Of a stretch of DNA of 64,000 nucleotides, positions 1 through 29,492 are shown one piece after another (position 1 is the stretch's first letter; every line of letters begins with the position of its first letter). Under the pieces are notes generated by a model. That model did not search any database and was not told where the DNA came from. It saw only the letters and a list, made by a program, of their open reading frames with translations. Both the position numbers and the translations under genes were made by a program. Source of the DNA: Closterium sp. NIES-65 (lineage: Eukaryota; Streptophyta; Zygnematophyceae; Desmidiales; Closteriaceae); contig CANXME010002068.1 of NCBI GenBank assembly GCA_948144175.1, positions 2,170,001 to 2,234,000 on the forward strand, given 5' to 3'.

Positions 1-3173
<3,173 letters not shown>

Positions 3174-3331
3174 CACCTAGTGACTTAGCCTCTCAAGCCT
3201 CCCCTAGCCTCCCTAGCCTCCCTAGCCTCCCATTGTTCGGTTCTCTTTGCATTTGTTTCTCCTAACCGAGCGGAGAGAGAGGAGAGAGAGGCAAGCACTA
3301 ATCGCAACACAGGGGCAAGCGGAGGTCGGAT

Positions 3332-4552
3332 CTACATCCGGTGTGCTCCAAGGGCATGGAGAATGCCAGTTAGGGTCCGCCACAGCTCCCGGACCACCAG
3401 CGTACTTGCGCCGATCGCCGCGGCTCCAGATCCAGCGCGCAAATGCCGCTTCAAGCTCCGGACAGCCTCGTCCAGCTGTCCCGCAGCAGCAGCGCCACCC
3501 TCCGCGGGCGCAGCCAGCACGGGCGCCAGCAGCACGGCGAGCTGGTCCGCCGCATCCAAGCATGTCTCGCGCGGACGGTCGCGAAACGTCTCAGGAGGGA
3601 CCAGAGGGAGTGAGGAGTGAGCAAGGACTTGTATCAGCAGCAACGCGTGGAGACTCTCGGCGAGGCGGTGGAGCTGCCCGAGAGTCGATGCGGGAACACG
3701 CGTCTGCGGAGGCTGAAGCGCCTTCGCCAGGAATTGGAGCGGCTCATCAGCTCCATACTGAGCCGCTGCCGCGCCACCACCCGCGGCCACAAACTCCACC
3801 CCCGCAACAGGCGGAACCGTCGGCAGATGCAGACGAGAGCCGGGAGCTGGCGCCGCTACAGAGGGAGAGGGAGCAGACGGGACGAGGACAGGGGAAGGAA
3901 ATAGAACGGTCGGCGGAGGGACCATAGGAGGCACAGGCGGACGAGGAGCCACGCGCGCCGGCGCAGCCCGCGGCGATCTGCTCTGGCTCTGCGCCGCCCT
4001 CTCCTCGCGAACAGCGCGGGAGACTTCCCGCTGAAGATCGGCCATCGTCACCGGCGGGCGGTACCCCCCACCACGCCCGCGGGGACCCCTCCAGTCCCCC
4101 TGACCACCGGGGCGAGCAGGCCAGTCACGCTGCTGCTGGTGTCGCCGAGGAGAATCACGACGGCGACGAGACGACTTGCGATCCTGGTGAGGCGAGGGGG
4201 AATGAGGGCGAGACGATCGGCAATCAGGCGACGGGGGGCGCACCGGCTGACCAGCCGGGTCCACTGTCGCCGCAACAGGCCCGGATTGCGCCGCCGCTAA
4301 AGGCGCAACCGACGGAACCGGGCCGCCAGTGGTGGCGGACGCCGCATTCGTCGACGAAACAGAAGCCGGTGCCGGCGCGTTGGGGACGGAAGCAGGCGGA
4401 GCAACGGGCGCCCCAGCTCCAAGAGCAGCCGCAGGAACAGACGGGCCAGCTCCCAACACGGCAAGGGGATCCGCGGGTGCGTGGGGAAGAGTCTTTTCAG
4501 CGACTGTTGTCGAGGGCGTCGGAGCCGGCGGTTCAGGGGGCTCCGTCGGCAT
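3332..4552 (-). CDS. antisense ORF of LINE copy 2, 406 aa, Pro/Arg-rich with conserved helical C-terminus
   Basis: This is an ATG-initiated minus-strand ORF inside the 5' part of a plus-strand LINE. Residues 1-105 are Pro/Ala/Ser-rich. Residues 106-165 are basic and RS/RG-rich (SSRRRRDSPRR, GPRGRGGGY). Residues 170-188 can form a charged helix starting MADLQREVSRAV. Residues 195-235 are Pro-rich. Residues 287-406 look like a folded, Leu-rich helical domain ending ALGAHRM. The C-terminal domain matches the antisense ORF of LINE copy 3: both have AE-x-L, PP-x2-F-x3-PR, an AA-x2-L segment, a VVR-x-LW motif and a final A-x-RM. The plus-strand frames of the same regions show no such similarity, so I take the minus strand as coding. 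The basic region plus helical domain would fit a nucleic-acid-binding, Gag/ORF1-like particle protein. That function is inference; I do not recognise the family. Confidence 0.65.
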   Translation of the reverse strand: MPTEPPEPPAPTPSTTVAEKTLPHAPADPLAVLGAGPSVPAAALGAGAPVAPPASVPNAPAPASVSSTNAASATTGGPVPSVAPLAAAQSGPVAATVDPAGQPVRPPSPDCRSSRPHSPSPHQDRKSSRRRRDSPRRHQQQRDWPARPGGQGDWRGPRGRGGGYRPPVTMADLQREVSRAVREERAAQSQSRSPRAAPARVAPRPPVPPMVPPPTVLFPSPVLVPSAPSPSVAAPAPGSRLHLPTVPPVAGVEFVAAGGGAAAAQYGADEPLQFLAKALQPPQTRVPASTLGQLHRLAESLHALLLIQVLAHSSLPLVPPETFRDRPRETCLDAADQLAVLLAPVLAAPAEGGAAAAGQLDEAVRSLKRHLRAGSGAAAIGASTLVVRELWRTLTGILHALGAHRM

Positions 4553-4620
4553 GGTCGCCTTTCCGGGCCCCGACTAAGGCAGGGCGACCACAGCCGACCA
4601 GGCGGCAGCGCGCACTGGCG

Positions 4621-4953
4621 ATGGCTCAGATGCACCGGCAATCACCATCTGGAGATCGGGGAGGCAGCGGGGCCAGGAGGCAGGTTACGAGCGGGGCAGG
4701 CGGATGTCCGGAAAACGGGTACCAAGCGGCGGGGCGTAGGGCTTTAAGGGCTCTGGAGGCAACTAATGAGGATTATGAGGATGACGAGATAAGGGACCCA
4801 CCTTATAGGGAAGAATCCCTCCCTCCAAGCGAAGACGAGGGGACCGAGGACGAAGGCAGTACACGGGAGGCAGCGGGAAGAGGAGTAGCGCGGGTAGGGC
4901 TCCGCTACAGAGGGAGAGGGAGCAGACAGGACGAGGACAGGGGAAGGAAATAG
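4621..4953 (+). pseudogene. truncated 5' end of the LINE sense ORF, repeat unit 1
   Basis: The frame begins with the same ATG context (GCGATGGCTCAGATGC) as the main ORF at 6719. It encodes the acidic N-terminal region (NEDYEDDEIRD, SEDEGTEDEG), then crosses the repeat junction at 4902/4903 and stops at TAG 4951-4953 after an unrelated basic tail. It lacks RT and endonuclease and is a by-product of the tandem duplication. Confidence 0.7.
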
Positions 4954-5601
4954 AACGGTCAGCGGAGGGACCATAGGAGGCACAGGCGGACGAGGAGCCA
5001 CGCGCGCCGGCGCAGCCCGCGGCGATCTGCTCTGGCTCTGCGCCGCCCTCTCCTCGCGAACAGCCCGGGAGACTTCCCGCTGAAGATCGGCCATCGTCAC
5101 CGGCGGGCGGTACCCCCCACCGCGCCCACGGGGACCCCTCCAGTCCCCCTGACCACCGGGGCGAGCAGGCCAGTCACGCTGCTGCTGGTGTCGCCGAGGA
5201 GAATCACGACGGCGACGAGACGACTTGCGATCCTGGTGAGGCGAGGGGGAATGAGGGCGAGACGATCGGCAATCAGGCGACGGGGGGCGCACCGGCTGAC
5301 CAGCCGGGTCCACTGTCGCCGCAACAGGCCCGGATTGCGCCGCCGCTAAAGGCGCAACCGACGGAACCGGGCCGCCAGTGGTGGCGGACGCCGCATTCGT
5401 CGACGAAACAGAAGCCGGTGCCGGCGCGTTGGGGACGGAAGCAGGCGGAGCAACGGGCGCCCCAGCTCCAAGAGCAGCCGCAGGAACAGACGGGCCAGCT
5501 CCCAACACGGCAAGGGGATCCGCGGGTGCGTGGGGAAGAGTCTTTTCAGCGACTGTTGTCGAGGGCGTCGGAGCCGGCGGTTCAGGGGGCTCCGTCGGCA
5601 T
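4744..5601 (-). pseudogene. truncated antisense ORF, repeat unit 2
   Basis: This 285-aa minus-strand ORF starts with the same MPTEPPEP N-terminus as the 406-aa ORF and keeps the Pro-rich and RS/RG-rich parts. At the repeat junction it runs into the complement of the sense N-terminal region and ends in a short hydrophobic tail. The conserved C-terminal helical domain is missing, so it is probably non-functional or a dominant variant. Confidence 0.6.
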
Positions 5602-5669
5602 GGTCGCCTTTCCGGGCCCCGACTAAGGCAGGGCGACCACAGCCGACCAGGCGGCAGCGCGCACTGGCG

Positions 5670-6002
5670 ATGGCTCAGATGCACCGGCAATCACCATCTG
5701 GAGATCGGGGAGGCAGCGGGGCCAGGAGGCAGGTTACGAGCGGGGCAGGCGGATGTCCGGAAAACGGGTACCAAGCGGCGGGGCGTAGGGCTTTAAGGGC
5801 TCTGGAGGCAACTAATGAGGATTATGAGGATGACGAGATAAGGGACCCACCTTATAGGGAAGAATCCCTCCCTCCAAGCGAAGACGAGGGGACCGAGGAC
5901 GAAGGCAGTACACGGGAGGCAGCGGGAAGAGGAGTAGCGCGGGTAGGGCTCCGCTACAGAGGGAGAGGGAGCAGACAGGACGAGGACAGGGGAAGGAAAT
6001 AG
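5670..6002 (+). pseudogene. truncated 5' end of the LINE sense ORF, repeat unit 2
   Basis: This is the same fragment as in unit 1, exactly 1049 bp downstream. The ATG is at 5670, followed by the acidic N-terminal region. The frame crosses the junction at 5951/5952 and terminates at 6000-6002. No catalytic domain is present. Confidence 0.7.
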
Positions 6003-6650
6003 AACGGTCAGCGGAGGGACCATAGGAGGCACAGGCGGACGAGGAGCCACGCGCGCCGGCGCAGCCCGCGGCGATCTGCTCTGGCTCTGCGCCGCCCTCT
6101 CCTCGCGAACAGCCCGGGAGACTTCCCGCTGAAGATCGGCCATCGTCACCGGCGGGCGGTACCCCCCACCGCGCCCACGGGGACCCCTCCAGTCCCCCTG
6201 ACCACCGGGGCGAGCAGGCCAGTCACGCTGCTGCTGGTGTCGCCGAGGAGAATCACGACGGCGACGAGACGACTTGCGATCCTGGTGAGGCGAGGGGGAA
6301 TGAGGGCGAGACGATCGGCAATCAGGCGACGGGGGGCGCACCGGCTGACCAGCCGGGTCCACTGTCGCCGCAACAGGCCCGGATTGCGCCGCCGCTAAAG
6401 GCGCAACCGACGGAACCGGGCCGCCAGTGGTGGCGGACGCCGCATTCGTCGACGAAACAGAAGCCGGTGCCGGCGCGTCGGGGACGGAAGCAGGCGGAGC
6501 AACGGGCGCCCCAGGTCCAAGAGCAACCGCAGGAACAGACGGGCCAGCTCCCAACACGGCAAGGGGATCCGCGGGTGCGTGGGGAAGAGTCTTTTCAGCG
6601 ACTGTTGTCGAGGGCGTCGGAGCCGGCGGTTCAGGGGGCTCCGCCGGCAT
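5793..6650 (-). pseudogene. truncated antisense ORF, repeat unit 3
   Basis: This is a 285-aa minus-strand ORF from ATG at 6650 (N-terminus MPAEPPEP). It has the same structure and the same loss of the C-terminal domain as the unit 2 copy. Its start codon faces the ATG of the main RT ORF across 68 bp. Confidence 0.6.
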
Positions 6651-6718
6651 GGTCGCCTTTCCGGGCCCCGACTAAGGCAGGGCGACCACAGCCGACCAGG
6701 CGGCAGCGCGCACTGGCG
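6651..6718. promoter_or_regulatory. 68-bp divergent gap between antisense and sense start codons
   Basis: The antisense ATG (6650) and the sense ATG (6719) face away from each other across 68 bp of GC-rich DNA (GGTCGCCTTTCC...GCACTGGCG). The same gap occurs in units 1 and 2. In copy 3 the corresponding ATGs (12063 and 12198) are 134 bp apart. The layout suggests that two divergent transcripts, or at least two divergent translation starts, come from this region. I see no TATA box in the gap, so promoters may lie inside the flanking coding DNA. This is inference. Confidence 0.4.
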
Positions 6719-9700
6719 ATGGCTCAGATGCACCGGCAATCACCATCTGGAGATCGGGGAGGCAGCGGGGCCAGGAGGCAGGTTACGAGCGGGGCAGGCG
6801 GAGGTCCGGAAAACGGGTACCAAGCGGCGGGGCGTAGGGCTTTAAGGGCTCTGGAGGCAACAAATGAGGATTATGAGGATGACGAGATAAGGGACCCACC
6901 TTATAGGGAAGAATCCCTCCCTCCAAGCGAAGACGAGGGGACCGAGGACGAAGGCAGTACACGGGAGGCAGCGGGAAGAGGAGTAGCGCGGGTAGGGCTC
7001 TTGGCCACGCAAGCAGCACAGGCGGCTCAGCGACTGTCCGATGCCAATCGAACGGGTGAAATTCCAACCCCAATCCTGCCAGGGCGGACGGGTCGCGCTC
7101 GACGAAATCAGACCGCTACTCCCAATGTCGCGACGCGCCAAACCACTCCGACACCCCGCTATTTTTCCCCTGACGAACTGGCGAAGAGAGCAGACCTGTT
7201 CGCAACAATCTCGAGCTGGGACATCGCGGCACTCTGCGACAGTCGCCAGCCTTCGCTGACACGTCGTTTACCGCCTACTCTGTGCCAACTGTTCTCGCTA
7301 GCGCTTCTGACACCGTTACTCCACCTATCGCAAAACCCTGAATCCGAGGAGGGTTGGCGCTTGCTGCTGTTCCTCCCGCGCCTAACACTTCGCCAGACCT
7401 CGCCACAACGACCGAACTGGCCGCGGGTCAAAGCCCAGCTCGGAGCCTTTCAGCGCGGCGAATGGGGGCAGCCATACCAGAACGCAGTCGACGCGGTCAA
7501 CACACCCCCACCGCCACGACACCAGCCTGACACGACCGGAGTCATCAGCCGAGCCGAGGGCCTGGCGAAACGTGGCAGCCTACGCAGGGCCGTGCTGGCC
7601 CTGGAGTCAACACCCGTCTGCACCCCGAGCCAGGAAATATTAGAAGAGCTGCGACAGAAGCACCCGCCAGCAGTACCCGATGCAGTGACCTGGCCTGAGC
7701 CACCAGAGTCAAAACTTTCCATCACTCATGCTGAGTTCTCCAAGCTTCTTGGAAGGTGCGAGAACGGGGTAGGGGCCGGACCTTCGGGTACGACATTTGA
7801 GCACCTACGTGACGCGGCGATCACCAACGGAATGGTTAGCACCCATCTGCACGCCTTGGTCAATACCATTCTCGGAGGGAATTTGCCAGGCCCGGTCGCA
7901 AAAATCCTGACCGCGTCACGGCTCATAGCTCAGGCCAAGCCTGGGGGAGGAGCCCGGCCAATTGCGATAGGCGAATGCTTGACAAGGCTGACGGCCAAGG
8001 CAGCCCTGATAGCCATGGGAGAAGCTGCACGCGAACATTTCCTGCCAATTCAGTACGGCGTGGCAGTGCCAGGTGGAGCTGAGGCAGTAATACACGCAGC
8101 CAGGGCTTTCTTGGATGCTCGTCCCAACAGCCTGGTCCTGCAAGCCGATATATCGAACGCATTCAACAGCATTTCGCGACATGCCATCGCCACTGCGTTA
8201 CAGGAGCCCGGACTCTCGCCACAACAGACATTTGTAAAACTGACGTACGGTAACCCGTCGCAGCTGTTCCTCGACTCTGATTTCAACAGCGAACCACTGC
8301 AAAGTGAACGGGGCGTTCGGCAGGGTGATCCACTAGGCCCGTTACTGTTTGCAGCGGGAATACACCCCACGCTCCGCGAGATTACAGTGGCACACCCCAA
8401 CGTGCTCTGCTTGGCATATGCGGACGATGTCACCTTCCTGGGTGACACTTCGTGCACTGTAGCAGCATTCACAGACTTCACAGCCAAGCTGGCATGCCTG
8501 GGCCTGACGCATAATCCGCAGAAATGTGCGGCCTGGAGCTCGACGACAGTCACACAAGCGCAACTCCCACCCGGGGTGCCGATTTCAACGGACGGGGTAC
8601 GACTCCTTGGTAGCTACGTGGGGACAGACGTCGGAGCAGCCAAGTTCCTAACCGAACAGTTAGCCGAAATGACAAAGCCGCTGCCACTAATAGAACGAGC
8701 TGACCCCCAAGTAGCCGCGCTTCTACTCACGCGATGCATTTCTAGACGAGTAGCCTACCTCATTAGAACAACACCGCTTCACCTACTCCCCCGCGACACC
8801 TGGAGCCAGTGGGGTCGGGACCTGCTCACTACCTTACTCACCTCCTGCGACATCCGCATGCCAACTTGCCGCACTGAGCAAGCACGTGTGTGGGAGCAGG
8901 CGTCGCTGCCCACATCGCTAGGAGGCATCGGCATTACAAACCCGCTCGTTGAAGGAATCTACGGTTTTACAGCAAGTTTCACCCAAGCGGCGTTGTTCTT
9001 GTCCTCCCTGGCGCTAGCACCGGAGAATGCCTTGACGATCGCTCAGAACCACATGCTACTGCCAAGAGATGACAGCACGCCGATGCATTCCTGGCTCAAG
9101 GAGTGCGAAGCAGGTCTGCCACTAGACGCGCGCGAGATCCTAGAGAAGGAGCGGCTGGAGCGATCGGATATTAGGCTGCAACATGTGCTCGGGCTAAAGG
9201 TACACGGAAGCAGATATGTGGTACAGGTCCAGGCAACCAGGCGCATGCGGTTGAACCCACTGTCAGGCCACACGCAGCGTATGTTTTCGCTGACCGGGTA
9301 TGGCACCGGCGATTGGCTCACCGCGATCCCCATTGAGCCCACCAGACGGATAGGCCCCGTACACTTCGCCAATGCCGTTCGATTCCGCCTGGCCCTCCCC
9401 TTTTCAACCCCTAAGAACTGCGACTGTGCGGACAAGACCGCCATCACCGATCCCCGCCTACCGAACCATCTCCTCCGCTGCGGTTTGGGCAAACACCGCA
9501 TCAACACCCACAACGAGCTACGGGATGCGTGCATTAGCATGGCGCAGCACGCATGTTTCATTGTTCACGGCGAGTCGGCCGCCCATTGCCCTATCGAGGA
9601 CCAAACCGCCGACTTTACAATGACGGATAGAAGCAGTGGGGCGGTTTATGTCTGTGATGTCACCATCACGGACCCCATCAGCACGAGAGACCCAGAGGCG

Positions 9701-9952
9701 CAGAAAGGCAGGGGATGGGCGGCACGGGAACAAGCCGATAAGAAAATACAGCATTACGCCAACCGGCCAGAGACGGTTGGCTTCTTCCCATTGGCAGTCG
9801 ACACCTATGGTTGCCCATGCGCGGAAGTACCAACCTTCCTGAAGCTCCTCGCAGACACGGCGGCTCGGCGCCACTTTAACGCCGACTCCAAATCCTTTTA
9901 TGCCGCCAAGTTCCTGCACCAGTTTCGGCAGCGATGGTCAGTGGCCCTCTAA
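6719..9952 (+). CDS. LINE ORF: reverse transcriptase and restriction-like endonuclease
   Basis: The ORF is open upstream from a GTG at 6467, but the first ATG is at 6719 (GGCGATGG context), giving 1077 aa. Counting from 6467, the order is an acidic N-terminal region (about 130-165), a conserved pre-RT region with LLFLPRLTLRQ, then RT at about 430-700. RT shows GPSGTTFEHL, ARPIAIGE, motif A with Asp561 (ADISNAFNS), motif B RQGDPLGPLLFA and the YADD box at 651-654. The knuckle is C985, C987, H1001 and C1005. The endonuclease has Asp1049 and Asp1064 in AD-x14-DVT, followed by KGRGWAAREQADKK. Compared with copy 1 the frame ends early: TAA at 9950-9952 replaces a CAG, and the usual last 44 codons follow in frame to TAG at 10085-10087. 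No APE domain is present. The protein would do target-primed reverse transcription. Confidence 0.88.
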   Translation: MAQMHRQSPSGDRGGSGARRQVTSGAGGGPENGYQAAGRRALRALEATNEDYEDDEIRDPPYREESLPPSEDEGTEDEGSTREAAGRGVARVGLLATQAAQAAQRLSDANRTGEIPTPILPGRTGRARRNQTATPNVATRQTTPTPRYFSPDELAKRADLFATISSWDIAALCDSRQPSLTRRLPPTLCQLFSLALLTPLLHLSQNPESEEGWRLLLFLPRLTLRQTSPQRPNWPRVKAQLGAFQRGEWGQPYQNAVDAVNTPPPPRHQPDTTGVISRAEGLAKRGSLRRAVLALESTPVCTPSQEILEELRQKHPPAVPDAVTWPEPPESKLSITHAEFSKLLGRCENGVGAGPSGTTFEHLRDAAITNGMVSTHLHALVNTILGGNLPGPVAKILTASRLIAQAKPGGGARPIAIGECLTRLTAKAALIAMGEAAREHFLPIQYGVAVPGGAEAVIHAARAFLDARPNSLVLQADISNAFNSISRHAIATALQEPGLSPQQTFVKLTYGNPSQLFLDSDFNSEPLQSERGVRQGDPLGPLLFAAGIHPTLREITVAHPNVLCLAYADDVTFLGDTSCTVAAFTDFTAKLACLGLTHNPQKCAAWSSTTVTQAQLPPGVPISTDGVRLLGSYVGTDVGAAKFLTEQLAEMTKPLPLIERADPQVAALLLTRCISRRVAYLIRTTPLHLLPRDTWSQWGRDLLTTLLTSCDIRMPTCRTEQARVWEQASLPTSLGGIGITNPLVEGIYGFTASFTQAALFLSSLALAPENALTIAQNHMLLPRDDSTPMHSWLKECEAGLPLDAREILEKERLERSDIRLQHVLGLKVHGSRYVVQVQATRRMRLNPLSGHTQRMFSLTGYGTGDWLTAIPIEPTRRIGPVHFANAVRFRLALPFSTPKNCDCADKTAITDPRLPNHLLRCGLGKHRINTHNELRDACISMAQHACFIVHGESAAHCPIEDQTADFTMTDRSSGAVYVCDVTITDPISTRDPEAQKGRGWAAREQADKKIQHYANRPETVGFFPLAVDTYGCPCAEVPTFLKLLADTAARRHFNADSKSFYAAKFLHQFRQRWSVAL

Positions 9953-10183
9953 AGGGCCCAATCAGTGGGTCTTCTACTCAAGTTGGGCGAGGCAGCAGCA
10001 GCAGAGAACCCGCCTGTAGGGGGTATTGGTCAAGAGTTACACCTAGGGGACTGTTTTGCTGTGGTAGAGCCCTTTCTGGAGCTCTAGGGGAAAAGTGGGT
10101 ATGATTGGTGCTTTGTTTGTTTCTTTGTTACATCCTTATATTGCATGCTTGTACCTTGCTGCCATATCAATACAAGGGCCATT

Positions 10184-10200
10184 AGAGAGAGAGGGGGGGG
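10184..10200. repeat. short GA tract plus G-run after LINE copy 2
   Basis: Ten bases of GA repeat followed by a run of G directly after the 3' end of LINE copy 2 (...GGGCCATT). This is the same junction type as at 3063, but the tract is much shorter and passes straight into another endonuclease fragment. Confidence 0.85.
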
Positions 10201-10380
10201 CGCACAAACACACACAATGAAATTAGAGACAAGTGCGCACGGATGGCACAAGATGCTGGCTTCATGGTGCATATCGAGAAGGCCGCCTTCAGCCCAGTGG
10301 AGGAGAAGAAGGCAGACCTGGCCTTACGCTGCCGCTCTACTGACGCCGTCTACATATGCGATGTAACGGTAACGGACCCC

Positions 10381-10384
<4 letters not shown>
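10198..10384 (+). pseudogene. isolated fragment of a third LINE endonuclease domain
   Basis: An uninterrupted 187-bp reading frame encodes RTNTHNEIRDKCARMAQDAG, then KKADLALRC and YICDVTVTDPI. It corresponds to the part of the LINE ORF between the zinc knuckle and the end of the endonuclease active-site segment, including both catalytic Asp positions. The sequence differs from both other families in the window. It is held between two GA tracts, and its right edge is ...GACCCCATCAG followed by AGAGAG. It is either a severely truncated element or a remnant left by recombination between GA tracts. Confidence 0.75.
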
Positions 10385-10460
<76 letters not shown>

Positions 10461-10467
10461 GAGAGAG
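10385..10467. repeat. (GA)n microsatellite before LINE copy 3
   Basis: About 83 bp of GA repeat with single interruptions (ACAG, ATAG). It lies between the endonuclease fragment and the 5' end of LINE copy 3, which begins CGTCTTACTTAGCCTCT. Confidence 0.95.
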
Positions 10468-10497
10468 CGTCTTACTTAGCCTCTTCCACCCTCCACC

Positions 10498-10504
10498 TAT
10501 ATAA
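10498..10504 (+). promoter_or_regulatory. possible TATA box in the LINE copy 3 leader
   Basis: TATATAA lies 31 bp inside the element in an otherwise C/T-rich leader (CCACCTATATAATGGCC). It could drive a sense transcript, although a sense promoter placed here would make the RNA lose the first bases of the element. Copy 2 has no matching TATA, so this may be chance. Confidence 0.3.
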
Positions 10505-10713
10505 TGGCCTCTCGGCCTATGATCTAGCTCATTATTTGCTTGGTTCTTCAAAGCATTTTTCCGGCTCTCGCGGGCGCGGTCTTCGGCTGCGCGTGAGAGG
10601 TGACAAGATCTCTACAACCGTGGTCAACTAGCAAGACCGACAACGACAATGGCATGCAATGACATCTAGGCAGGATCACATGGAACGGGTCTACACGCGC
10701 GCGAGAGCTGCGC

Positions 10714-12063
10714 CTACATGCGGTCCGCCTCAAGCTCACCTAGCATTTCGCGGGCGGTCAACCACAAGCAGCGGACCACTGACGCGGTGACAACGTCAAC
10801 AGGAGTTCCGCGATCTCCTACAAGCGTCTTCAGATCCAGGGCCCTCTCAGCCAGCAGGGTGGCTGAGACTACTCCCGGCAAGGGCGCAACCTGCAGTGGC
10901 GATACGAACGCGAATAGTGTTGACGCCGCCGCGTGACACCTTGCTCGCGGCATCTGAGAGAACATGCTCGGTGGGGTCAACGACATGGAGCCGTGAGACT
11001 CCACAAGAACCACCTCAAGACTCTGCAGGCACTCCGCGATCGACCACAAATGCGCCAGGGTCGCCATGGGCACTTCTTTCTTTGCCGGCGGCATTGCAGT
11101 TTGGCGAGCTCGACGCGCCGACACCACATAATCGCGCGGAGGTGGAGCGGGACGTGGAGGAACGTACGGGGCCCACGGATCCCCGCCACCCACTCCCACG
11201 AAACCTGCCCCCGCAGGCAGAGGACTACGGGGACGCACAAGAGACCCCACCGGGTTGTGCGGCAAGAGCGCAGCGAGGGGAGCGACTGGAGCTGCTGGGC
11301 GCGCGACCTGCGATGATGACTCCGCCTTCGAACGGTGGAGTGCCTTCTCCACTCCATCCAACCTCTGCTGAAGACGCTCCATTGCGGATGGCGCCATACG
11401 CGCCGCTCCGCCACGGCCATAGCCGCCCTGCCGCCCATGTCGCGCACGGCCGCTCACATTTGAGCGCGCAGGCGATGGACGGCGGGACGAGACGAGCTGG
11501 TGCGGGCGCTCAGGAGATCGTCCCCCGCGACGAGGGGAGTAAAGTCGCCACCGCTTTTGCTGCTGCGGCGAACGCGGGGAGAGGGAGCGATGGTGCGAGG
11601 CGTGATGCTCAGGAGAATGCTGGCGTGACGATTAGCGAGCAGGGGATCGGTGACGACGCCTCCAGCGATCTCGGGACGAGCTTCGCGACGCCACGCGGCG
11701 TGGCGATCGCGACCGGTGGGGCGATAGCGGCGGGGGAGGCGTGCAGGACATATCTCGACGATCATCACGACGACTCGCCCGCCCCTCATGGTGTGTTACT
11801 GACGAGCGGCGCCAAGGCGATCGCCCCCGGTGCGCCACAGCCTCTTCGTCGGAGCGCATGCCGGGCCCCTTGCGTGCCAGTTCCTTCCGTGGCGAGGTTC
11901 GCACCAGCTCGCATCGATGCTCCTCGAAGCGGCGGCGGACCTGTTCTGCCGCCTTCAACGGGGCCATAGGGACACTCGCCGCAGGTCGCGACGGAGGAAG
12001 CGCACGGGGAGCAGGATCGCTCTCCGCGGTACGTTCATGGACCGGAGCGGCGGGCAGATCCAT
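10714..12063 (-). pseudogene. antisense ORF of LINE copy 3, one frameshift
   Basis: This is the minus-strand counterpart of the 406-aa ORF in copy 2. It starts at ATG 12063 (MDLPAAP) and has a basic SR-rich stretch (PHRSRSPRRVASRSSSRDRW). It shifts frame once near 11630, then continues with more RS/RG-rich sequence, GRQGGYGRGG and a helix of the MERLQQRLDGVEKAL type. The C-terminal helical domain is 10714 to about 11060 and ends LGELEADRM. That domain aligns with copy 2 over its whole length, with matching AE-x-L, PP-x2-F-x3-PR, AA-x2-L and VVR-x-LW elements and the same last residues. Domain order is also the same. Retention on the antisense strand of two diverged families is the main evidence that this ORF is real. 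Function is unknown; a nucleic-acid-binding role is inferred. Confidence 0.6.
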
Positions 12064-12197
12064 CAAGCCGACAGACAGATGCTGCACGAGGCGCGGACGG
12101 ATGACTTCCCGCAGTCGGCCCTGCGGGACGAGAGGGGAGCGCGGCTGTCGGCGGGGGACCAGAAAACGTCTACCAGCGGGCGGGCAGACTGGCTTTA
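12064..12197. promoter_or_regulatory. 134-bp divergent gap in LINE copy 3
   Basis: This interval lies between the antisense ATG (12063) and the sense ATG (12198). It is GC-rich and has no clear TATA box. Its position matches the 68-bp gap of copy 2, so the head-to-head arrangement is shared by two diverged families. Confidence 0.35.
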
Positions 12198-15175
12198 ATG
12201 AATCTCGATGAGGATACTGATAGCAACACCTCGGATGTTAGCTTTGTACCCACTGTATCCACGGACTCGACCTCGAGCTCAGAGTCTGTGGATGAAGCGG
12301 AGCTTCGGACTCCTGCTTGGGCAGATAGGGCAACGACCGCTAACACTGGTAGGAGACCCGGGAGGAGGGGTCCAACAACACCAACTCGCGCCGCATCGGG
12401 AATTGCTGCCACGCCACCACACCCAACCACAACTTCCCACATTTAGACCCCTGCGCAAACCGCCCCTCCATCTGCACCTGCACCTGGCCGTAACCCCATT
12501 TCAACCCAACCCCTCGAGGAAAAATCACCTGAAACCCTAGCATTGGACGATCCCCTATTTGCAGCAGTGGAAGTGTGGGACTTAGCGACACTTCGCGACA
12601 GTCGCCACGCCTCCCTCTCTCGCCACCTCCCCCACGACCAACGAAAGCTCCTCGCCACGGCCATGTTAGTGCCACTGCTGCGCCTGGCGAAGGATCCCGA
12701 CTCTTACCCAGCCTGGGTGCTGCTCCTCTTCCTCCCGCGCCTTACCCTTCGCCAACTGTCGCCGAGAAAACGCGACTGGCCCACTGTCACGGCTCGACTC
12801 ACCCAATTCCTGTCAGGCGAATGGGACAAGCTGTACCTGAACACTGTGGCCTCCCTGTCGTGGCCAGAGCCACCCAGACACCAGCCTGATGACGTCGTCG
12901 TCATCGCTCGTGCTGAGGGGCTAGCGAGACGTGGCTGCCTGCGGCGTGCGGTATTGGCTCTCGATGCCACTCCGGTCTGCACTCCGTCTCCAGCCGTGCT
13001 GGAGTCACTGCGCGCCAAGCACCCACGAGCTCCCTCCTCTCAACTGAACCGGACATACCCAGCACCAGACCCACCACTGACCGCTCCCTTCGAAATTTTC
13101 TCCAAGGTGTTGGGACGCTGTGAGATGGCTGTTGGGGCAGGCCCCTCTGGGACAACATTCGAACACTTACGGGACTCAGTGCTGATCAACGCCTCGGTGG
13201 GAAAGCACCTGCATGCACTCGTGAACACCATCCTAACGGGGAAATTACCGCCCGCCGTAGGAGAACTCCTCACTGCTTCCCGCTTACTAGCACTTACCAC
13301 ACCAGACAGGGGGACGTGGCCAATCGCTGTTGGCGAGTGCCTCTTACGCCTCGCCGCTAAGACGGCCCTTGCCCTGACAGCTAATGACGCGCAGAAATTC
13401 TTTCTTCCCTACCAGTTTGGAGTAGCAGTCCCGGGCGGAGCGGAGGCAATCATTCACATCTCCCGCACTTACCTCACCGTGAATCTGAGCGCTCTGGTCC
13501 TGCAAGTAGACATAGCAAACGCTTTCAATAGCGTTGACCCGGCGGCAATCGTAGCATCCCTCATTGGTTCCTCGCTAGCCTCCCTACTGCCCCTGGTGAA
13601 GTTTACCTACAGCCATCCATCTGCGCTGCGCCTCGACGCCGGCTTCTCACACACACCTCTCTCGAGTGAAACCAGGGTGAGGCAGGGGGACCCCCTCGGC
13701 CCACTCCTTTTTGCTGCAGCCATGCATCCAGCGCTCAAACAAACAGCCCTGGCGTACCCGTTCGTAGTCTGCCTCGCTTACGCGGACGATGTGACCTTTC
13801 TGGGAGAGGCGGCGGAATGTGCAGCCGCTTTCAATGACTTCATCACCAACCTCACTGGGATCGGGCTGCTCCACAATCCCTCCAAATGCGCGGCATGGTC
13901 TCACACAGGGCAGCAGCCGGCATCACTACCCCGTGGCTTGCCCTTCAGTGACGGTGGTGTGAAGGTGCTGGGCAGCTTCATTGGTGGTACCGACGCCACG
14001 GCCTCCTTCCTTCGCAACAACCTCGACGCAATGGGTAGCCCGCTACGCCTGATAGCTCAAATGGACCCGCAGCTAGCCTCCCTCCTGCTTACCCGCTGCA
14101 TTTCGCGCCGCGTCTGTTACGTAGCCTGCACAACTCCACTGTCAGCCCTGCCAATAGAGGAGTGGTCGGACTGGGGAAAGCGGTTGTTTGACACCTCCGC
14201 CTGTGGAATACGCCAGCCGAGGGGTGAAGCAGAGATTGCACGTGCCTGGGCACAAGCATCTCTCCCGGTCTCCCTTGGAGGCCTTGGCCTGGCGGACCCA
14301 TCGGTGGAGGGGCGTGTCGGATTCCTCGCTAGTTACACACAGGCCAGCCACCTACTCACCTCCCTCGATGAGGCATCAGTTGGAGCCCTGGCAGAGACAC
14401 GGGCTCAGATGGTAGGGCCCCTACAGAACACAGCACCCCTCTTTGATTGGCTTGAGAGGTGTGAGGAGGCGCTGCCAGCTGAGGGGAAGGAGCTGTTACA
14501 AAGCGAACGGGCTGAACCCAAAGGCATAAACCTGCAGCACGGGCTCACCACATTGGTTCAGGGGTTATGGTACGCTGAGCAGGCTCGAGACACGCGCAGG
14601 ATGCAGCTCAATCCCCTCAGCGGCCACACCCAGCGGATGCTCTCCTTATCTGGCTACGGGGCAGGGGACTGGCTGCACGCGGTCCCCTTCAACTCATCAC
14701 TCCGCCTTGCCCCAGCCCACTTCGCCCACGGGCTGCAGTTTCGGATGGGTCTGCCATCCTCCGCCCCTGGTGCCTGCGATTGCCGCATGGAGGTGGCAAT
14801 TGCAGATAGGAGGTTGCCCAACCACCTGCTCTGCTGCGACACAGAGGGGGGACAAACTAATACTCACAACAAACTTCGGGTTGAGTGCGTGCGCATGGCG
14901 GAAGACGCAAGCTTCATGACCCATAGCGAAACAACCGCGTTCTGCCCGGTCACCAGAAAGAAGGCAGACATTGCCATACGGGACCACTCCTCCGGGGCAG
15001 TTTGGATCGGGGACGTGACAATCACAGACCCCATTAGTACTTGAGACCCCAACGCGATCAAGGGAAGAGGCTGGGCGGCACGGGAAGCAGCAGACAAGAA
15101 AATATCTGACTACGAGGGCTCCACGGCCTCATGGGTTGGATTCTTCCCCCTCGCCGTTGAGACTTACGGATGTCT
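12198..15175 (+). pseudogene. LINE copy 3 ORF: reverse transcriptase and endonuclease, broken
   Basis: The ORF starts at ATG 12198 (MNLDEDTDSNTSD, acidic as in copy 2). It has an in-frame TAG at 12444-12446 and a TGA at 15042-15044 where copy 2 has an Arg codon (CGA to TGA). After that it reads on (DPNAIKGRGWAAREAADKK) until it is cut at about 15175. RT motifs are present: GPSGTTFEHL, motif A DIANAFNS, motif B RQGDPLGPLLFA, YADD at about 13780, and LLHNPSKC. The knuckle CDC...NHLLCC and endonuclease AD-x14-DVTITDP follow. In RT motif 2 it reads TWPIAVGE where the other copies have ARPIAIGE. The protein is homologous to copies 1 and 2 along its full length but clearly a different family. Confidence 0.85.
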
Positions 15176-15830
15176 GTACCTGATGACCTGTACTCGCTCT
15201 TAGCGTCATGGCACCCTTTGTCGCACCTGGGAGACACCGACCTTCCCACTGGTTGGCTGCTAAGAGGGTGCTGAAGTATGTGGCGAGCACATCAGACATG
15301 TGACTTGTCCTTGGAAAGAAGCAGCCAGTACACTCACAGGTTTCTTACACTCGTCGTACGCGGACTGTGGCCAGGCGTACAGGTCTACATAGGGTTACTG
15401 CTTCAGCCTTGGGACCGGAGCCGTTTCGTTGAGGTCGACTCATGCGTCCTCCGTTGCTAGCTCCAGCTATGAGGCTGAGGTGTACGCTGCGGCCATGGCC
15501 GCCCACGAGCTTCGGTGGCTACCTTCACTCCTCACCGGCCTTGATGAGCGGCCTTGCTCCCCCCCTGTCTTGTTTGTCGACACAAACTGATGTCCTGTTG
15601 TGCGAGAAGCCCCGACTAGTTGGGAAGGCGAAGCGTATCTAGCTTCGTTACTTACTTTTGCACAAATTGTAGCCGCGTGGACAGACCCGTATGGTACGTG
15701 TGGCATCTGAGGCCAACACTGCATATGTCTTCACCAAGGCGTTGCCGCCTTCTAACCACCAGCGTTACTACACCCAGTTGGGCCTTGTGCCTGCCAGTGC
15801 TCACTTGCTTACGTACGGATGCCTGTCTTG
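15176..15830 (+). pseudogene. decayed copia RNase H fragment (element A)
   Basis: The sequence starts with YLMTCTRS and continues through remnants of the copia RNase H domain: YCFSLGTGAV, SYEAEVYAAAMAAHELRWLPSL, PVLFVDTN and a degraded ANTAYVFTKALPP C-terminus. It has many stops and at least two frameshifts. It replaces the 3' end of LINE copy 3. In intact copia elements this domain degrades the RNA template and carries the D-E-D catalytic residues; here the reading is lost. Confidence 0.75.
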
Positions 15831-24157: not shown

Positions 24158-27100
24158 TAGTGGCGGCGGTGGAGGCGGAGGTGGCGGCGGAGGTGGTAGC
24201 GGAGGAGGCGGTGGGAGCGGTGGGAGCGACGGTCCTGGTGGGGGAGGTGGCGGTGGCGATGGGGGTGGCGGTGGAGGCGGGGGTGGCGGTGGAGGAGGGG
24301 GTCGGAGTGGCTCGTCCCAGCGGAGCAGCTCTGGGGGTGGTCAGCGCCAGCAGCAGCAGCAGCAGCAGCCGCAGCAGCAGCCGCAGCAGCAGCAGCGCTC
24401 TCGCACCGTCCCCGGCCCTCAGCAGCTCCGTGAGTGGTACTTGCAGCGTCAGCGCGGTGGTGCGCTTGGTCCCTGCCCCTACGTTCTTCGCACTGGTGAC
24501 CGTGCAGGGGAGAGGTGTGGAGGCGCCCACACAGCCCGTCGCTGCTTTGGCCGCCTGACCGACGCCTGGCGTCAGCAGTTTCCGGAGGCCGCTGAGATCC
24601 CCCGCTGGGGAGAGCTGTCTAGGGCTGGTGTAGCTATTTATGATCTTGATTTTGATGCTATTCTCTCTGCTATGTATGCTGTGACTGGTAGTGATGAGGA
24701 TGACTGTTACCGGTGTTTCCCGCCCGACCCGGGCATTGGTACGGCCGCGTCAGGTACTAGTGAGGCTGCTGCTCTAGGTGCCAGTGCGTCTGTGCTTTCA
24801 GGTACTGGTGAGTCCGCCCTCTCAGGTACTGTGTCGGCTTCGGCCTCTCACACCTTCACCCTTGACTCTGGAGCGTCTCGCTCCTTCTTTAGGGACCGCA
24901 CCACTCTCACGCCGCTGAGTCGGCCTGTTGCGGTGTCCCTGGCGGACCCCTCTGGGGGGCCTGTCCTGTCTCGCTTCTCCACTGTCCTCCCGTGTCCGGC
25001 GGCCCCCTCTGGCACCCTGACTGGTCTATACCTCCCCTCGTTCTCGACGAACTTGGTGAGTGGTGCTGACCTCCAGGATGCAGGTGTCCACCAGTTCACC
25101 CCTGCTCGTCAGCGGGTGACCCACTGTACGGAGGCGGATACAGGTCGCCACCTAGCTACGTTTACACGTCGGCCGGGGTCGAGCCTGTACACACTGACCA
25201 CTGCTTCTCCTCCAGGTACTGCGTCTGGTAGGGCCCCTTCGTCTGGTCAGGTGTTTGCTGCAGCGTCCAGGTCTGGTCCTGAGTCTGCCCCTTGTTCGTG
25301 TCGTCGTCTGTCTCACGAGACCCTCCTCTGGCACCACCGCCTTGGCCACCCCTCTCTGCTTCGGCTCAGAGGCATGGCCTCGCGGGTCCTTGTGTCTGGT
25401 CTTCCCCGGTCCCTCCCTCCCCTTCCTCCGGGCCCTGGCCCTGCCTGTGTCCCCTGTGTCGAGGGGCGCCAGCGTGCTGCCCCTCACTCCTCCCAGTTTC
25501 CTCCGACAGAGGCCCCGTTGCAAACGCTTCACATGGACGTGTGGGGCCCAGCCCGCGTCCGTGGACAGGGTCAGGAGCGCTACTTCCTGCTGGTGGTTGA
25601 CGACTACTCGCGTTACACCAGAGTCTTCCCCTTGCGCAGCAAGGGTGAGGTCACTCAGGTGTTGATCGACTGGATCCGCGCAGCTCGTCTTCAGCTTCGG
25701 AGAAGCTTTGGCTCTGACTTCCCTGTCTTGCGTCTGCACTCGGACAGAGGCGGAGAGTTCTCCTCTGCCCTCCTGAGTGCCTACTGTCGTGTGCGAGGCA
25801 TCCGTCAGACCTTCACGCTTCCGGACTCACCACAGCAGAATGGGATCGCTGAGCGCCGCATTGGCATGGTCATGGACGTCGCTCGTACGTCCATGATGCA
25901 TGCGGCTGCTCCCCATTTTCTGTGGCCGTTTGCGGTCAGGTACGCTGCACACCAGATCAACCTCCACCCCAGGGTCTCTCGACCGGAGACCTCCCCAGCT
26001 CTGTTGTGGACGGGGAAGGTTGGCGATGCGTCGGCGTTCCGGGTCTGGGGATCTCGGGCGTTTGTTCGCGACCTGTCTGCGGACAAGCTGTCCCCTCGTG
26101 CGTCTCCTTGCGTCTTCCTCGGGTTCCCCCCCGACGCCCCTGGGTGGCAGTTTTACCACCCCACCTCTCGACGTGTTCTGTCCTCCCAGGACGTCACGTT
26201 CGACGAGTCGGTACCCTACTACCGCCTCTTCCCCTACCGCACTCCGTCCCTCCCCCCACCCCCGCTCTTCTTGGTACCAGGTCCCCCCCCAGTAGTCCCC
26301 CTCCCCCCTCAGGGTCCTGCCCCTTCAGGTGTGTCTCAGGTAGACGCGGTCGAGCCTGTCGAGGTCACTGGTGACTCTGGTGCTGCTGCGGGAGCTGAGC
26401 CTGGGGGTGCGGAGTCTAGGGGTGCTGAGCTTGGGGGTGCTGAGCCTGGGGGTGCGGAGTCTGGGGGTGCTGGGCCTGGGGGTGCTAGGCCTGGGGGTGC
26501 TGTGCCTGGGGGAGCTGAGCCTGGGGGTGCGGAGTCTAGGGGTGCTGAGCCTAGGGGTGCTGGGCCTGGGGGTGCTGAGCCTGGGGGTGCTGTGCCTGGG
26601 GGTGCTGAGCCTGGGGGTGCTGTGCCTGGGGGTGCTGAGCCTGGAGGTGCCGAGCCTGGAGGTGCTGTGCCTGGTGGTGCTTCGTCTCGCCGGGAGCCGC
26701 TCTCTCCACAGGAGCTGCGTGAGTGGTTTGCCCGGCGCTGGAGGCGTGCCGCTGGTGCTGGTGGTTCTTCGGCTGCGGAGGGCGCTGCTGCCACGCAACC
26801 TGGCGGTGCTCGTCCTGTGGGTGCTGGAGCTGCTGGGTCTGAGGGTTCTCCTGGAGCTGGTCCTGCTGAGGACGTTGGCGCTGAGCCTGCGGTTGGTGGT
26901 CCGACTGACGGTGCTCCTGGTGCTGCTGCTGGAGGTTCTGGAGCTTCTGGTGGTTCTGCTGGAGGTGCTGCTGGAGTGGGTGCTCCGGCCGGAGCTGCTG
27001 GTTCTGTTCCTGCTGTTTCTGGCGTCGCCGCGCGGTCTCGACCGTACTTCGTTCCGCTCCTGGAGCAGGTTCTTGGTCTTGCTCCTCCTCCTCCTCCCTT

Positions 27101-29288
27101 AGAGGGTCCGCAGCCTGTCCGGTCACAGCCACAGCTAGAGCCTGCCTTCCCTTTGCCTGCTCCTTCTCCCTACGCTGGTCCGACTGGAGGCCTTACTGAG
27201 CGTCGTGAGCCTGCGTCTCGTCCTGCGTCGCCTGTTCGTACTGAGCGCGCTAGTGGTCGCGGGTCGCGTCAGCGTCCTCCTCCTGTCCCTGGCACGCACC
27301 GGATGTCACTGCGTCCGTCCACTGCTCCTCTGCGTGCCCCTTTGCCTTCTCCTCCTGCTTCCTCTCTTCCTGCTCTTGCCGACCCGGAGTCGGACTCTCT
27401 TCGTGCTGCCAGTCCTACTGTCACGCGTCTCCTTGCTACTGCTGTCACTGACCCTTCCTTCGAGTCGTCTGCTGCGTCTGCCCTTGTCACTGAGCTTGTC
27501 GACTTTGCTGCGCGCTGTCGTCTAGACTACGCTGCTCGTCTTGTCGCTGAGTCAGAGTCCGCCTGTCCTCCGTCCGTCGGGGGTGAGTGTGCCCTTGGCA
27601 CGGACGTCCTAGAGGACAGGCAGGAGGAGTTCCAGTGTCTAGCCGCTGCTTCACCTCGTCTCGCGTCTGTACTGCTAGCCCCTGAGGGAGACCCGGATGC
27701 ACTAGACATCCCGACTCCGCGTTCTTACGCGGAGGCGGTAGAGGGTCCCTACTCCTCTCAGTGGCAGGCAGCTATGGATGCAGAGATGGCTTCCTGGAAG
27801 TCCACAGGCACCTACGTTGACGCGGTTCCCCCTCCTGGGGCGAACATCGTTAGTGGCATGTGGATCTTCAGGGTGAAGCGGCCGCCGGGCTCGCCGCCTG
27901 TCTTCAAGGCGCGTTACGTGGCTCGTGGCTTCAGTCAGCGGCAGGGAGTTGACTACTTTCAGACCTTCTCTCCCACCCCGAAGATGACCACTCTTCGGGT
28001 GCTGCTGCACATTGCCGCTCAGCGCGACTACGAGCTTCACTCTCTCGACTTCAGCACTGCGTTCCTGCAGGGTAGCCTGCACGAGGAGATCTGGCTGCGC
28101 CGTCCGCCTGGCTTCACTGGGACTTTCCCTCCTGGCACCCAGTGGAGCCTCCGACGGCCAGTCTACGGTCTCCGCCAGGCACCGCGTGAGTGGCACGACA
28201 CACTGAGGACTACGCTTGCGGCTCTTGGGTTTGCTCCTTCTACTGCTGACCCGTCGCTGTTTCTTCGCACCGACACTTCCCTGCCGCCGTTCTACATCCT
28301 CGTGTACGTCGACGACTTGGTCTTTGCCACAGCGGACACTGCTGGACTAGCCTACGTGAAGTCCGAGCTGCTGAAGAGACACACGTGCACAGACCTGGGT
28401 GAACTGCGCAGCTACCTTGGCTTGCAGATCACTCGGGACAGAGCACGCCGCACCATTACCCTGACTCAGTCACACATGGTGCAGCAGGTCCTTCAGCGCT
28501 TCGGCTTCACGTACTCCTCGCCTCAGGCCACTCCTCTGCCTACTCGCCACTCACTCTCAGCTCTGCCTTCGGATGAGTCCGTAGAGTCGAGTGGTCCGTA
28601 TGCAGAGCTTGTTGGCTGCCTCATGTACCTGATGACCTGCACACGACCTGACCTTGCATACCCTCTGAGCATCCTTGCACGCTATGTTGCTCCTGGGAGA
28701 CACCGACCAGAGCACATGGCTGCAGCGAAGAGGGTATTGCGCTACCTGTGCAGTACGTCGGGCATGGGGCTAGTGCTTGGAGGGCGGAGTCCAGTGGTCC
28801 TTACTGGGCACGCAGACGCTTCTTGGGCTGACGACCAGGCTACGCAGCGGTCGTCACAGGGTTACACCTTCAGCCTTGGTTCCGGCTCTGTCTCGTGGCG
28901 GTCTACTCGCTCGTCTTCAGTTCTCGGCTCCAGTTGTGAGGCTGAGATCTACGCCGGGGCCATGGCTGCACAGGAGCTTCGCTGGCTCACCTACCTGCTG
29001 ACTGACCTTGGAGAGCTGCCTCGTTCTCCTCCAGTGCTGTACGTAGACAACAAGGCCATGTTGGCCTTGTGTCGAGAGCAGCGCTTGGAGCACAGAACGA
29101 AGCACATTGCTCTCCGCTACTTCCTTGCTCGTGAGCTGCAGCAGCGTGGTCTGTTGCGACTTGCTTACGTGGCCTCTGAGGCCAACACTGCTGATGTGTT
29201 CACCAAGGCACTTGCGCCTTGCGACCATCAGCGCTTTTGTACCCAGCTGGGTCTTGTACCTGTCTTGCCTCACTTGCTCTCTTCTTGA
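24158..29288 (+). CDS. copia pol polyprotein of element B: protease, integrase, RT, RNase H
   Basis: The frame is open from 23904 (overlapping gag) to TGA 29286-29288. Order: glycine-rich gag end, a CPYVLRTGDRAGERC and CFGRLTDAW region, protease with LDSGAS (Asp at 24864), pre-integrase zinc domain (LLWHHRLGH near 25330; CVPCVEG), integrase with HMDVWGP, LHSDRGGEF and QQNGIAERR supplying D, D and E, then a long GAEPGG-type repeat spacer (26395-26690). RT begins near 27720 (YSSQWQAAMDAEM) and has YVDD at 28304-28315. RNase H has GHADASWADD, SSCEAEIYAG and YVDNKAMLAL, and the C-terminus is ANTADVFTKAL. All catalytic residues I can check are present. This is the most intact coding sequence in the window and could supply enzymes in trans to gag-less relatives. 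Confidence 0.93.
26395..26690 (+). repeat. 15-bp minisatellite encoding (G)GAEPG repeats in pol of element B
   Basis: Tandem GGGGGTGCTGAGCCT-type units keep the frame and encode alternating GGAEPG, GGAESR, GGAVPG and similar pentapeptides between integrase and RT. The same array occurs with different copy numbers in C (44610-44730 and 44840-44985), D (21165-21265) and, in degenerate form, K (58080-58400). Confidence 0.9.
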
Positions 29289-29492
29289 CTTTACTTGTAC
29301 TTTGACATATATATACCTGCTCTTGCTTGTCTAGTTTTATATATATGTCTGTACTCCTGCATGTGAACTGGCCTCTGGCCTTGCTCTTGTGCTCGGACTG
29401 TGTGGTGACTTTGTGATCCACCCTGAGCTTGCTTTGCTTTGCTTGACTGGTCTTGTGACCCCTTGTTCTCCCCCACTTTGCCTATGGGGGTG
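29289..29492 (+). other. 3' untranslated tail and polypurine tract of element B
   Basis: It contains two TATATA-rich runs (29306-29350), the conserved tail phrases GCATGTGAACTGGCC and GTGGTGACTTTGTGATCC, and ends CCTATGGGGGTG, a polypurine tract next to the 3' LTR. Confidence 0.75.

Follow-up and report, generated by a model that had tools for sequence, protein, structure and literature searches.

In the green alga Closterium, the first part of a jumping-gene family's main gene appears to be kept readable on both strands

Introduction

In the long interspersed nuclear element (LINE) L1, the antisense ORF0 is short and primate-specific. L1 also possesses an antisense promoter (PMC3985663), and conserved antisense open reading frames (ORFs), whose function is reported as unknown, are present in plant long terminal repeat (LTR) retrotransposons such as Grande (gene23), RIRE2 and Retand (PMC7264820). 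Among retroviruses, the antisense genes HBZ and ASP are known, the latter lying opposite env (PMC8156140, PMC4335690, PMC10186651). With regard to insertion sites, Togen elements, found in (TG)n, and some HERO families insert in simple repeats (PMC4640811). We describe a LINE of Closterium sp. NIES-65, three copies of which stand head to tail in a stretch of 64,000 nucleotides (nt), hereafter the window (assembly GCA_948144175.1, contig CANXME010002068.1, positions 2,170,001 to 2,234,000), with (AG)n tracts ahead of copies 2 and 3.

The 5' third of this LINE very probably codes on both strands, an antisense protein gene being fully nested, in antiparallel orientation, in the N-terminal part of the reverse transcriptase (RT) polyprotein, as judged from reading frames and substitution patterns. 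The initial annotation of the window had claimed a LINE with a conserved protein encoded on the opposite strand. This protein stands, but a gene that merely lies on the opposite strand does not describe the locus, since the sense strand is kept open too, its frame forming the N-terminal part of the RT polyprotein, which makes it a fully nested antiparallel overlap.

Results

The antisense protein and its relatives

The minus-strand ORF initially annotated in copy 2 (3332-4552, 406 amino acids, aa) and the minus frame of copy 3 (10714-12063) are both present, and the homology then proposed for their C-terminal domains was recovered in an all-frame, composition-adjusted blastp comparison, where the minus/minus pair ranked best (E = 1e-8, 35% over 129 aa) and the next frame pair reached E = 0.002. 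The frameshift attributed to copy 3 was not found; its frame contains instead a single in-frame TAA (11632-11634). In copy 2, an in-frame TAG (4574-4576) cuts off a conserved MVIAG start codon at 4648, which was probably the original start of this frame. A profile of 540 positions, built from 120 Closterium homologs found with the copy 2 antisense protein, matched only minus frames of the window at a domain E ≤ 0.01, and matched copy 3 at E = 2.8e-9 over positions 112-533. By eye, both proteins follow the domain order described at the outset (Pro/Ala-rich, RS, RG, short helix, C-terminal domain). The families, including the diverged loci L037, L038 and L039, share the order Pro/Ala-rich, RS, RG, short helix, GF(V)xAGGG and predicted helical C-terminal domain (again by eye), with a gene length of about 420-475 codons. 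In the five antisense proteins scanned with Pfam (copies 2 and 3, L014, L037 and L039), none of the ORF1p domains (RNA recognition motif, CCHC knuckle, esterase) was recognised, and the closest relative by sequence in the PDB was at E = 0.11 only. Viral relatives were also sought; 36 pattern matches were obtained in IMG/VR contigs, none of which was upheld by tblastn.

A protein search with the 406-aa ORF gave 285 matches at E ≤ 1 among 7,990 scored, and the 120 matches listed are unnamed products of the Closterium strains Naga37s-1, NIES-53, NIES-54 and Yama58-4. At or near the N-terminus of fifteen of these 120 listed gene models stands a peptide that corresponds to the sense ORF upstream of the antisense gene, read on its antisense strand; none has one that matches a plus frame. 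The copy 3 antisense protein retrieved 21 proteins, all from Closterium, NIES-64 and NIES-65 included. With the RT part as query, 104 RT-related proteins were obtained, 36 of them named Closterium, and two include part of the sense N-region. Relatives of the RT at about 30% identity in metagenome contigs (P0178-P0246), in Cafeteria roenbergensis and in a Spumella transcript point to an RT lineage that extends beyond Closterium.

Genome searches were run over the 874-Mb assembly holding the window. With the antisense protein, 102 of 85,744 candidates were scored (108 match pieces listed), 77 of them without stop; the RT protein gave 43 scored matches of 4,940, 31 of them free of stops and 24 of these open over at least 1,560 aa; and the copy 3 antisense piece gave 150 of 11,610, at identities down to 33%. 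A listed antisense neighbour lies on the opposite strand within 1.2 kb of 19 of the 43 RT matches, and none lies on the same strand within 2.5 kb among the matches listed; that the other 24 have no neighbour among the antisense matches listed carries little meaning. Both partners are stop-free in 11 of the 19 pairs, only the antisense part is stopped in one, only the RT in four and both in three. Routine breakage of the minus frame beside intact RT frames, a check suggested from the start, is therefore not seen, the antisense match being stop-free beside 11 of the 12 stop-free RT matches that have a listed antisense neighbour. Twenty loci of 10 kb were picked across the identity range from high-ranking stop-free antisense matches. 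In all 20, the antisense ORF lies on the strand opposite the sense ORF and faces its start; 18 retain the RT domain, L010 and L011 having the N-part only.

A sense frame kept open across the antisense gene

Coding on the two strands was compared in 27 mutually related antisense stretches (the last 400 codons) from 23 places, four of which contributed two, aligned as plain DNA and hence codon-blind. The three minus frames contain 3, 176 and 164 stops and the three sense frames 82, 271 and 15. When the synonymous codons of the minus ORF were permuted, with protein and codon counts preserved, the third sense frame of 25 stretches was expected to contain 200.9±10.6 stops, versus 11 observed, and none of 500 shuffles was as low. 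Correspondingly, codons with T or C in the middle that complete a sense stop amount to 15 of 475 before A and to 2,824 of 6,508 elsewhere; the stop-making endings CT, TT and TC fall before A from 0.381 to 0.023, from 0.281 to 0 and from 0.267 to 0.056, respectively, and CC and GC show no drop. The reverse shuffle, over 28 stretches and omitting two that have minus stops, gave 126±10 expected minus stops versus 0 observed. In the RT part of ten elements, taken as control, the matching antisense frame is undepleted (374 versus 367). Between pairs of copies, changes that make a sense stop occur at a ratio of 0.03 in the C-terminal part and of 0.38 in the middle.

An in-frame sense ATG is present in 24 of 25 copies, and in 23 it stands 31 nt outside the antisense stop codon (34 in copy 3, L037, L038 and L039); in L023 the distance is 115 nt. 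The sense frame of five of the 25 copies (L014, L022, L023, L024 and L028) remains open for 1,548-1,579 codons past the antisense stop, through the RT, and intact copies have a single sense ORF of about 1,560-1,620 codons counted from the ATG, running from the antisense gene into the RT.

Three diverged loci were picked for their open minus frames and not for their sense frame: L037, which is of the copy 3 type, L038 and L039, whose RTs share 58%, 53% and 42% identity with the copy 2 RT. Their antisense ORFs run without stops over 454, 440 and 423 codons, and the sense frame in the same register contains no stop in any of them, versus 7.8, 9.1 and 6.0 expected, zero being reached in 0 of 500 shuffles each. 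The antisense proteins match between families in all 12 pairs, at E = 6e-14 or better and with 36-51% identity between their C-terminal domains, versus 2 of 12 for the sense N-parts (L037/L039 at E = 4e-29 and L038/L039 at E = 2e-16, the other ten at 0.003 or worse). A TAA is found farther downstream in the sense frame of L038.

Selection on the two strands

Pairwise mismatches at minus codon positions 1, 2 and 3 are 0.133, 0.151 and 0.290 over the whole stretches and 0.065, 0.039 and 0.203 over the last 400 nt, which correspond to the C-terminal domain; related copies are counted as pairs in all pairwise statistics. The excess of synonymous change, whose strand had been named as one of the checks, thus sits in the minus frame. 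The ratio of nonsynonymous to synonymous divergence (dN/dS) was taken over pairs with 0.05 < dS < 1, out of 351. Its median for the minus frame is 0.37 over the whole (304 pairs) and 0.14 in the C-terminal domain (309 pairs), versus 1.15 (327 pairs) and 2.88 opposite the C-terminal domain (89 pairs) for the open sense frame. A further sense frame (f1) also has a low dN/dS (0.43, and 0.27 in the C-terminal part), because its wobble position opposes that of the minus frame, yet it carries 271 stops. Counting changes by their effect in both frames (131 pairs, 80-97% identity), the minus ratio with the sense effect held fixed (NN/SN) is 0.32, 0.43 and 0.57 in the C-terminal, middle and N-terminal parts, and the sense ratio with the minus effect held fixed (NN/NS) is 1.50, 0.87 and 0.73. 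These patterns argue firmly for a minus-strand protein gene under purifying selection. Opposite the antisense C-terminal domain the sense protein is unconstrained; closer to the RT it may be under mild constraint.

Type of reverse transcriptase and class of the element

The RT ORFs of the window contain the Pfam domain RVT_1 (E = 9e-20 and 4e-13), and their best matches among PDB structures are R2 proteins (E = 9e-10 with a single sequence, 1.5e-18 with a profile). Downstream, C900, C902, H916, C920, D964 and D979 are invariant in 10 sequences, the first four forming a C-x-C..H-x3-C motif, and the D..D stretch aligned weakly to the endonuclease region of R2 (935-1020, i-E 0.58). We take a C-terminal CCHC together with a PD-(D/E)xK pattern to be that of elements with a restriction-like endonuclease (RLE). 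No apurinic endonuclease domain was found, Pfam giving only RVT_1 above the cut-off in the RT ORFs of the window, the 1,574-aa sense ORF of L028 and L039. By these motifs, the element is a Closterium non-LTR retrotransposon with an R2-like RT and a predicted RLE region. We do not place it in the R2 clade proper as far as its sequence goes: the N-terminal zinc finger and Myb domains of that clade were not recognised by Pfam in the whole L028 sense ORF, and the flanks seen consist of (AG)n, other LINE copies or other sequence and not of the 28S ribosomal DNA target, which was not searched for beyond these flanks.

Promoter-like motifs and 5' RNA structures

In 21 of 22 copies, a sense TATA-like box follows the (AG)n tract at a distance of 30-61 nt. 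On the other strand, 15 of 16 copies from the copy 2 families have a TATAAG ahead of the antisense ATG, at 141-159 nt. A TTAAA at -99 of the antisense ATG is present in 16 of 16, and TTAAAGCC in 15; it may be no promoter signal, because it is also coding in the sense frame. Between the TATA box and the antisense stop codon, most of 13 aligned copies have two GC-rich hairpins capped by cUUCGg, in the 5' region of the sense RNA (L014:1320-1430 and equivalents); copy 3 keeps one of them (window 10560-10630), and the first hairpin loop is inverted in L017. In these hairpins no double-sided (compensatory) change was seen in 25 pairs, and an Rfam search of the 5' region gave no match at gathering score, the weak ones lying on or beside AG repeats. 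Copy 2 of the window lacks a 5' TATA box and 5' hairpins of its own.

The first 100 nt or so of the element (TATA region to CCGAGCGG) are partly or wholly repeated upstream of it, like promoter monomers, in L009, L014, L015, L017, L019, L020, L023, L026 and L027. Copy 2 has three 1049-bp monomers (3831-7000) in place of these upstream repeats.

Anatomy of the window

The features of the window are collected in Table 1. Copy 1 is 77% identical to 7154-10193 of copy 2. The 5' part of copy 2 consists of about three tandem 1049-bp monomers, so that the N-terminal part of the minus ORF is present three times, and a short piece from the 3' part of another LINE separates copy 2 from the (AG)n tract at 10384-10467.

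Table 1. Positions of the LINE copies and their parts in the 64,000-nt window.
Feature	Position	Strand	Remark
LINE copy 1	1..3062	+	5' part beyond window edge
Copy 1 RT/RLE frame, disrupted	ORFs 88-1326, 1266-2180, 2403-2951	+	
(AG)n tract	3063..3171	.	junction of copy 1 3' end and copy 2 5' end
LINE copy 2 (R2-like RT)	3172..10193	+	head-to-tail insertion after copy 1
Copy 2 sense-frame remnant facing antisense ORF	3247..3927	+	start lost, stop present
Copy 2 antisense protein ORF	3332..4552	-	406 aa from ATG 4552
C-terminal domain of copy 2 antisense protein	3335..3730	-	about 130 residues, predicted helical
Tandem monomers of about 1049 bp, copy 2	3831..7000	.	middle and N-terminal part of antisense ORF, start of RT-proximal sense frame
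Second antisense ORF, truncated	4744..5601	-	monomer 2
Third antisense ORF, truncated	5793..6650	-	monomer 3
Copy 2 sense ORF	6467..9952	+	RT (RVT_1), C-x-C..H-x3-C, putative restriction-like endonuclease region
(AG)n tract	10384..10467	.	ahead of copy 3
LINE copy 3, diverged family	10468..15200 (end approximate)	+	3' part decayed
Copy 3 antisense reading frame	10714..12063	-	one in-frame TAA, 11632-11634
Copy 3 RT ORF	12543..15044	+	50% identical to copy 2 RT; downstream broken

LINE copies inserted in the 3'-terminal (AG)n tract of other copies, forming head-to-tail arrays, are found in the window (3063-3171 and 10384-10467) and in L010, L011, L018 and L021; in other copies, e.g., L012 and L022, the (AG)n adjoins unrelated sequence. 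This suggests that the LINE targets AG microsatellites, its own tails included. The remainder of the window (17000-64000) presents many GC-rich minisatellites and several mutually similar repeats of 2-3 kb, such as the pair 26521-29555 and 44842-47864 (90% alike), which we presume to be Copia-type elements.

Discussion

We propose that the TATA-bearing 5' end behind the (AG)n tract would drive a sense RNA translated from the 5'-proximal ATG, so that the sense frame would have to remain open across the antisense gene, its amino acids mattering little opposite the antisense C-terminal domain. A second promoter within the sense ORF, in the copy 2 families the TATAAG about 150 nt before the antisense ATG, would drive an antisense mRNA. 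The encoded protein, with its RS/RG-rich flexible part and predicted helical C-terminal domain, would bind RNA or cDNA of the element as a separate, dose-controlled protein of the ribonucleoprotein (RNP). Its composition and the low-confidence helical models make such a Gag/ORF1p-like nucleic-acid-binding role a tentative assignment, with slightly less than an even chance. To the complete scenario we give a probability of roughly 0.4: two genes on opposite strands would be fully interleaved over more than 1.2 kb, the Gag/ORF1p-like protein being made from antisense RNA only and the RT polyprotein from sense RNA, the sense N-terminal third would owe its existence to the need for ribosomes to traverse the antisense gene, the overlap would be old, as it spans at least four diverged families, and the 5' dual-coding cassette would have been exchanged between RT lineages.

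Several observations weigh against the reading of two-strand coding, expression and function proposed here. The 27 stretches are related to one another and the 20 loci are a selected sample. The five scanned antisense proteins match no Pfam family above the cut-off; models of two diverged members of the antisense protein family have similar helices at low confidence (pLDDT, the predicted local distance difference test, 61 and 68; pTM, the predicted template modelling score, 0.46), which bears on the function, and fold searches with both returned generic helical bundles and other weak matches, the best at E = 0.051 in the PDB and 0.047 in BFVD. The TATAAG motif was looked for in L037, L038 and L039 and not found, and copy 2 of the window has neither a sense ATG nor a TATA box. 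In the N-terminal third, sense-stop-making changes are no rarer than other minus-silent changes (ratio 1.04), and 6 of the 15 sense stops fall there. For L038 and L039, the sense N-parts give the stronger match (43% over 118, E = 2e-16), the antisense proteins the weaker (36% over 121, E = 6e-14). Finally, the polyprotein is discontinuous in L037 and L039, where one in-frame TGA lies, at closely similar places, between the sense N-part and the RT (L037:1850-1852 and L039:1776-1778, 478 and 492 codons past the antisense stop, ahead of the RT frame); this TGA is possibly an ORF1/ORF2 border or a readthrough site.

Long antisense ORFs are frequent opposite GC-rich genes, and the minus ORF could be conceived as such a ghost, a by-product of the GC-rich codon bias of the sense gene, all the more as the opposite sense frame is open too and similarity exists between the sense N-parts in L038/L039 and in L037/L039. 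This reading is hardly credible: we consider it ruled out by the codon-position test and dN/dS, which both favour the minus frame, and by both shuffles, the reverse one giving 0 versus 126 minus stops, and the antisense proteins match between families where most sense N-parts do not (12 versus 2 of 12 pairs). Conversely, the sense frame might be untranslated and open because TTA, CTA and TCA are avoided for another reason, such as codon-pair or dinucleotide bias. A general avoidance does exist in part, since codons ending in GT, AT and AC are scarcer before A despite no stop arising (0.105 versus 0.261, 0.023 versus 0.217 and 0.047 versus 0.263). A further point against the main reading is that another antisense frame of the RT control is mildly depleted (117 versus 143±9). 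We nevertheless judge an untranslated sense frame very improbable given that CT, TT and TC endings collapse before A and CC and GC do not, that the matching frame of the RT part is undepleted and that the sense start codon is conserved. A regulatory role is a more serious competitor, though still an unlikely one: the antisense product or RNA would mainly regulate the element, as a nuclear repressor or through dosage control (compare HBZ and the L1 antisense transcripts), and would not be RNP- or Gag-like. Such functions have been considered for retroelement antisense genes and transcripts (PMC7264820, PMC3985663, PMC10186651), and a separate antisense promoter, as the motifs suggest, would permit independent control. 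Selection on amino acids (dN/dS 0.14) makes RNA alone insufficient, however, the RS/RG-rich and helical architecture also fits RNA binding and oligomerisation, and no DNA-binding domain was recognised by Pfam in the antisense proteins.

The relation between antisense gene and RT bears on a further possibility, that the antisense ORF is a foreign gene or a separate small element, a swappable 5' passenger outside the LINE machinery. RT and antisense distances, which one would expect to agree, did not do so over ten copies: the correlation is r = -0.09 for dN (1263 of 2000 permutations as high) and r = 0.20 for dS (330 of 2000). L014 and L018 have an RT dS of 1.45 and an antisense dS of 0.13; for L018 and L022, the RT value (0.16) is below the antisense value (0.24). 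In sliding identity profiles, 5' parts about 90-98% alike are joined to RT parts mostly 58-83% alike, e.g., in L014/L018, with joints that begin about halfway along the antisense gene (L014 coordinates 1500-2500). Since the distances disagree, the sequences point clearly to a 5' dual-coding module that is swapped between RT lineages and to a protein not tied to one RT, a point against the main reading. The antisense dS is 0.28 of the RT dS, and exchange, double constraint or both can account for this low value. This incongruence, the joined profiles and the tandem repetition in copy 2 are what a passenger would lead one to expect; but place, orientation and register are equal in the copy 2 families, L037, L038 and L039, the sense frame that crosses the antisense gene shares the reading frame of the RT and is held free of stops, no same-strand neighbours occur among the matches listed, and an exchange of 5' parts is also known from other LINEs, so that we regard a passenger as improbable.

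An antisense gene interleaved with the RT polyprotein would raise a question on the life cycle of the element, namely how it can both provide the full-length sense RNA that it needs and express a protein from the opposite strand while escaping self-silencing. Many copies of varied age in one genome also form a natural experiment on dual coding, in which selection on each frame is separable because the two share positions in a fixed register. Few long antiparallel overlaps with both frames demonstrably maintained are known. In the titles and opening lines of abstracts retrieved on non-LTR elements with antisense ORFs, on overlaps and on Closterium, no conserved antisense gene is mentioned for any non-LTR element besides L1 and, apart from L1 ORF0, no such overlap is described for a LINE.

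Comparison with known systems

The Closterium LINE resembles the RLE non-LTR clades (R2, R4, NeSL, HERO and CRE) by its RT, closest to R2, by the C-x-C..H-x3-C and putative RLE-like C-terminal region and by its one long sense ORF, and it shares with Togen and some HERO families, as far as these are described, an insertion in simple repeats (PMC4640811). Unlike these clades, for which the same abstracts mention none, it carries, within the N-terminal third of its ORF, a nested and conserved gene for an antisense protein. With L1 ORF0 and the L1 antisense promoters it has in common antisense coding or transcription out of the 5' part of a LINE, but the Closterium ORF is much longer (about 420-475 codons), is under purifying selection, lies opposite an open sense ORF and belongs to an R2-like, unrelated group of LINEs. 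The plant LTR antisense ORFs likewise represent a conserved antisense protein in a retroelement of the plant lineage (PMC7264820); the aORF-3R described there lies between pol and the 3' LTR, whereas that of Closterium occupies the 5' end of a non-LTR element, nested within its sense ORF. HBZ and ASP are antisense protein genes as well and, compared by description only, the Closterium gene differs from them in that the antisense protein is the constrained one, the sense protein being loose opposite its C-terminal domain.

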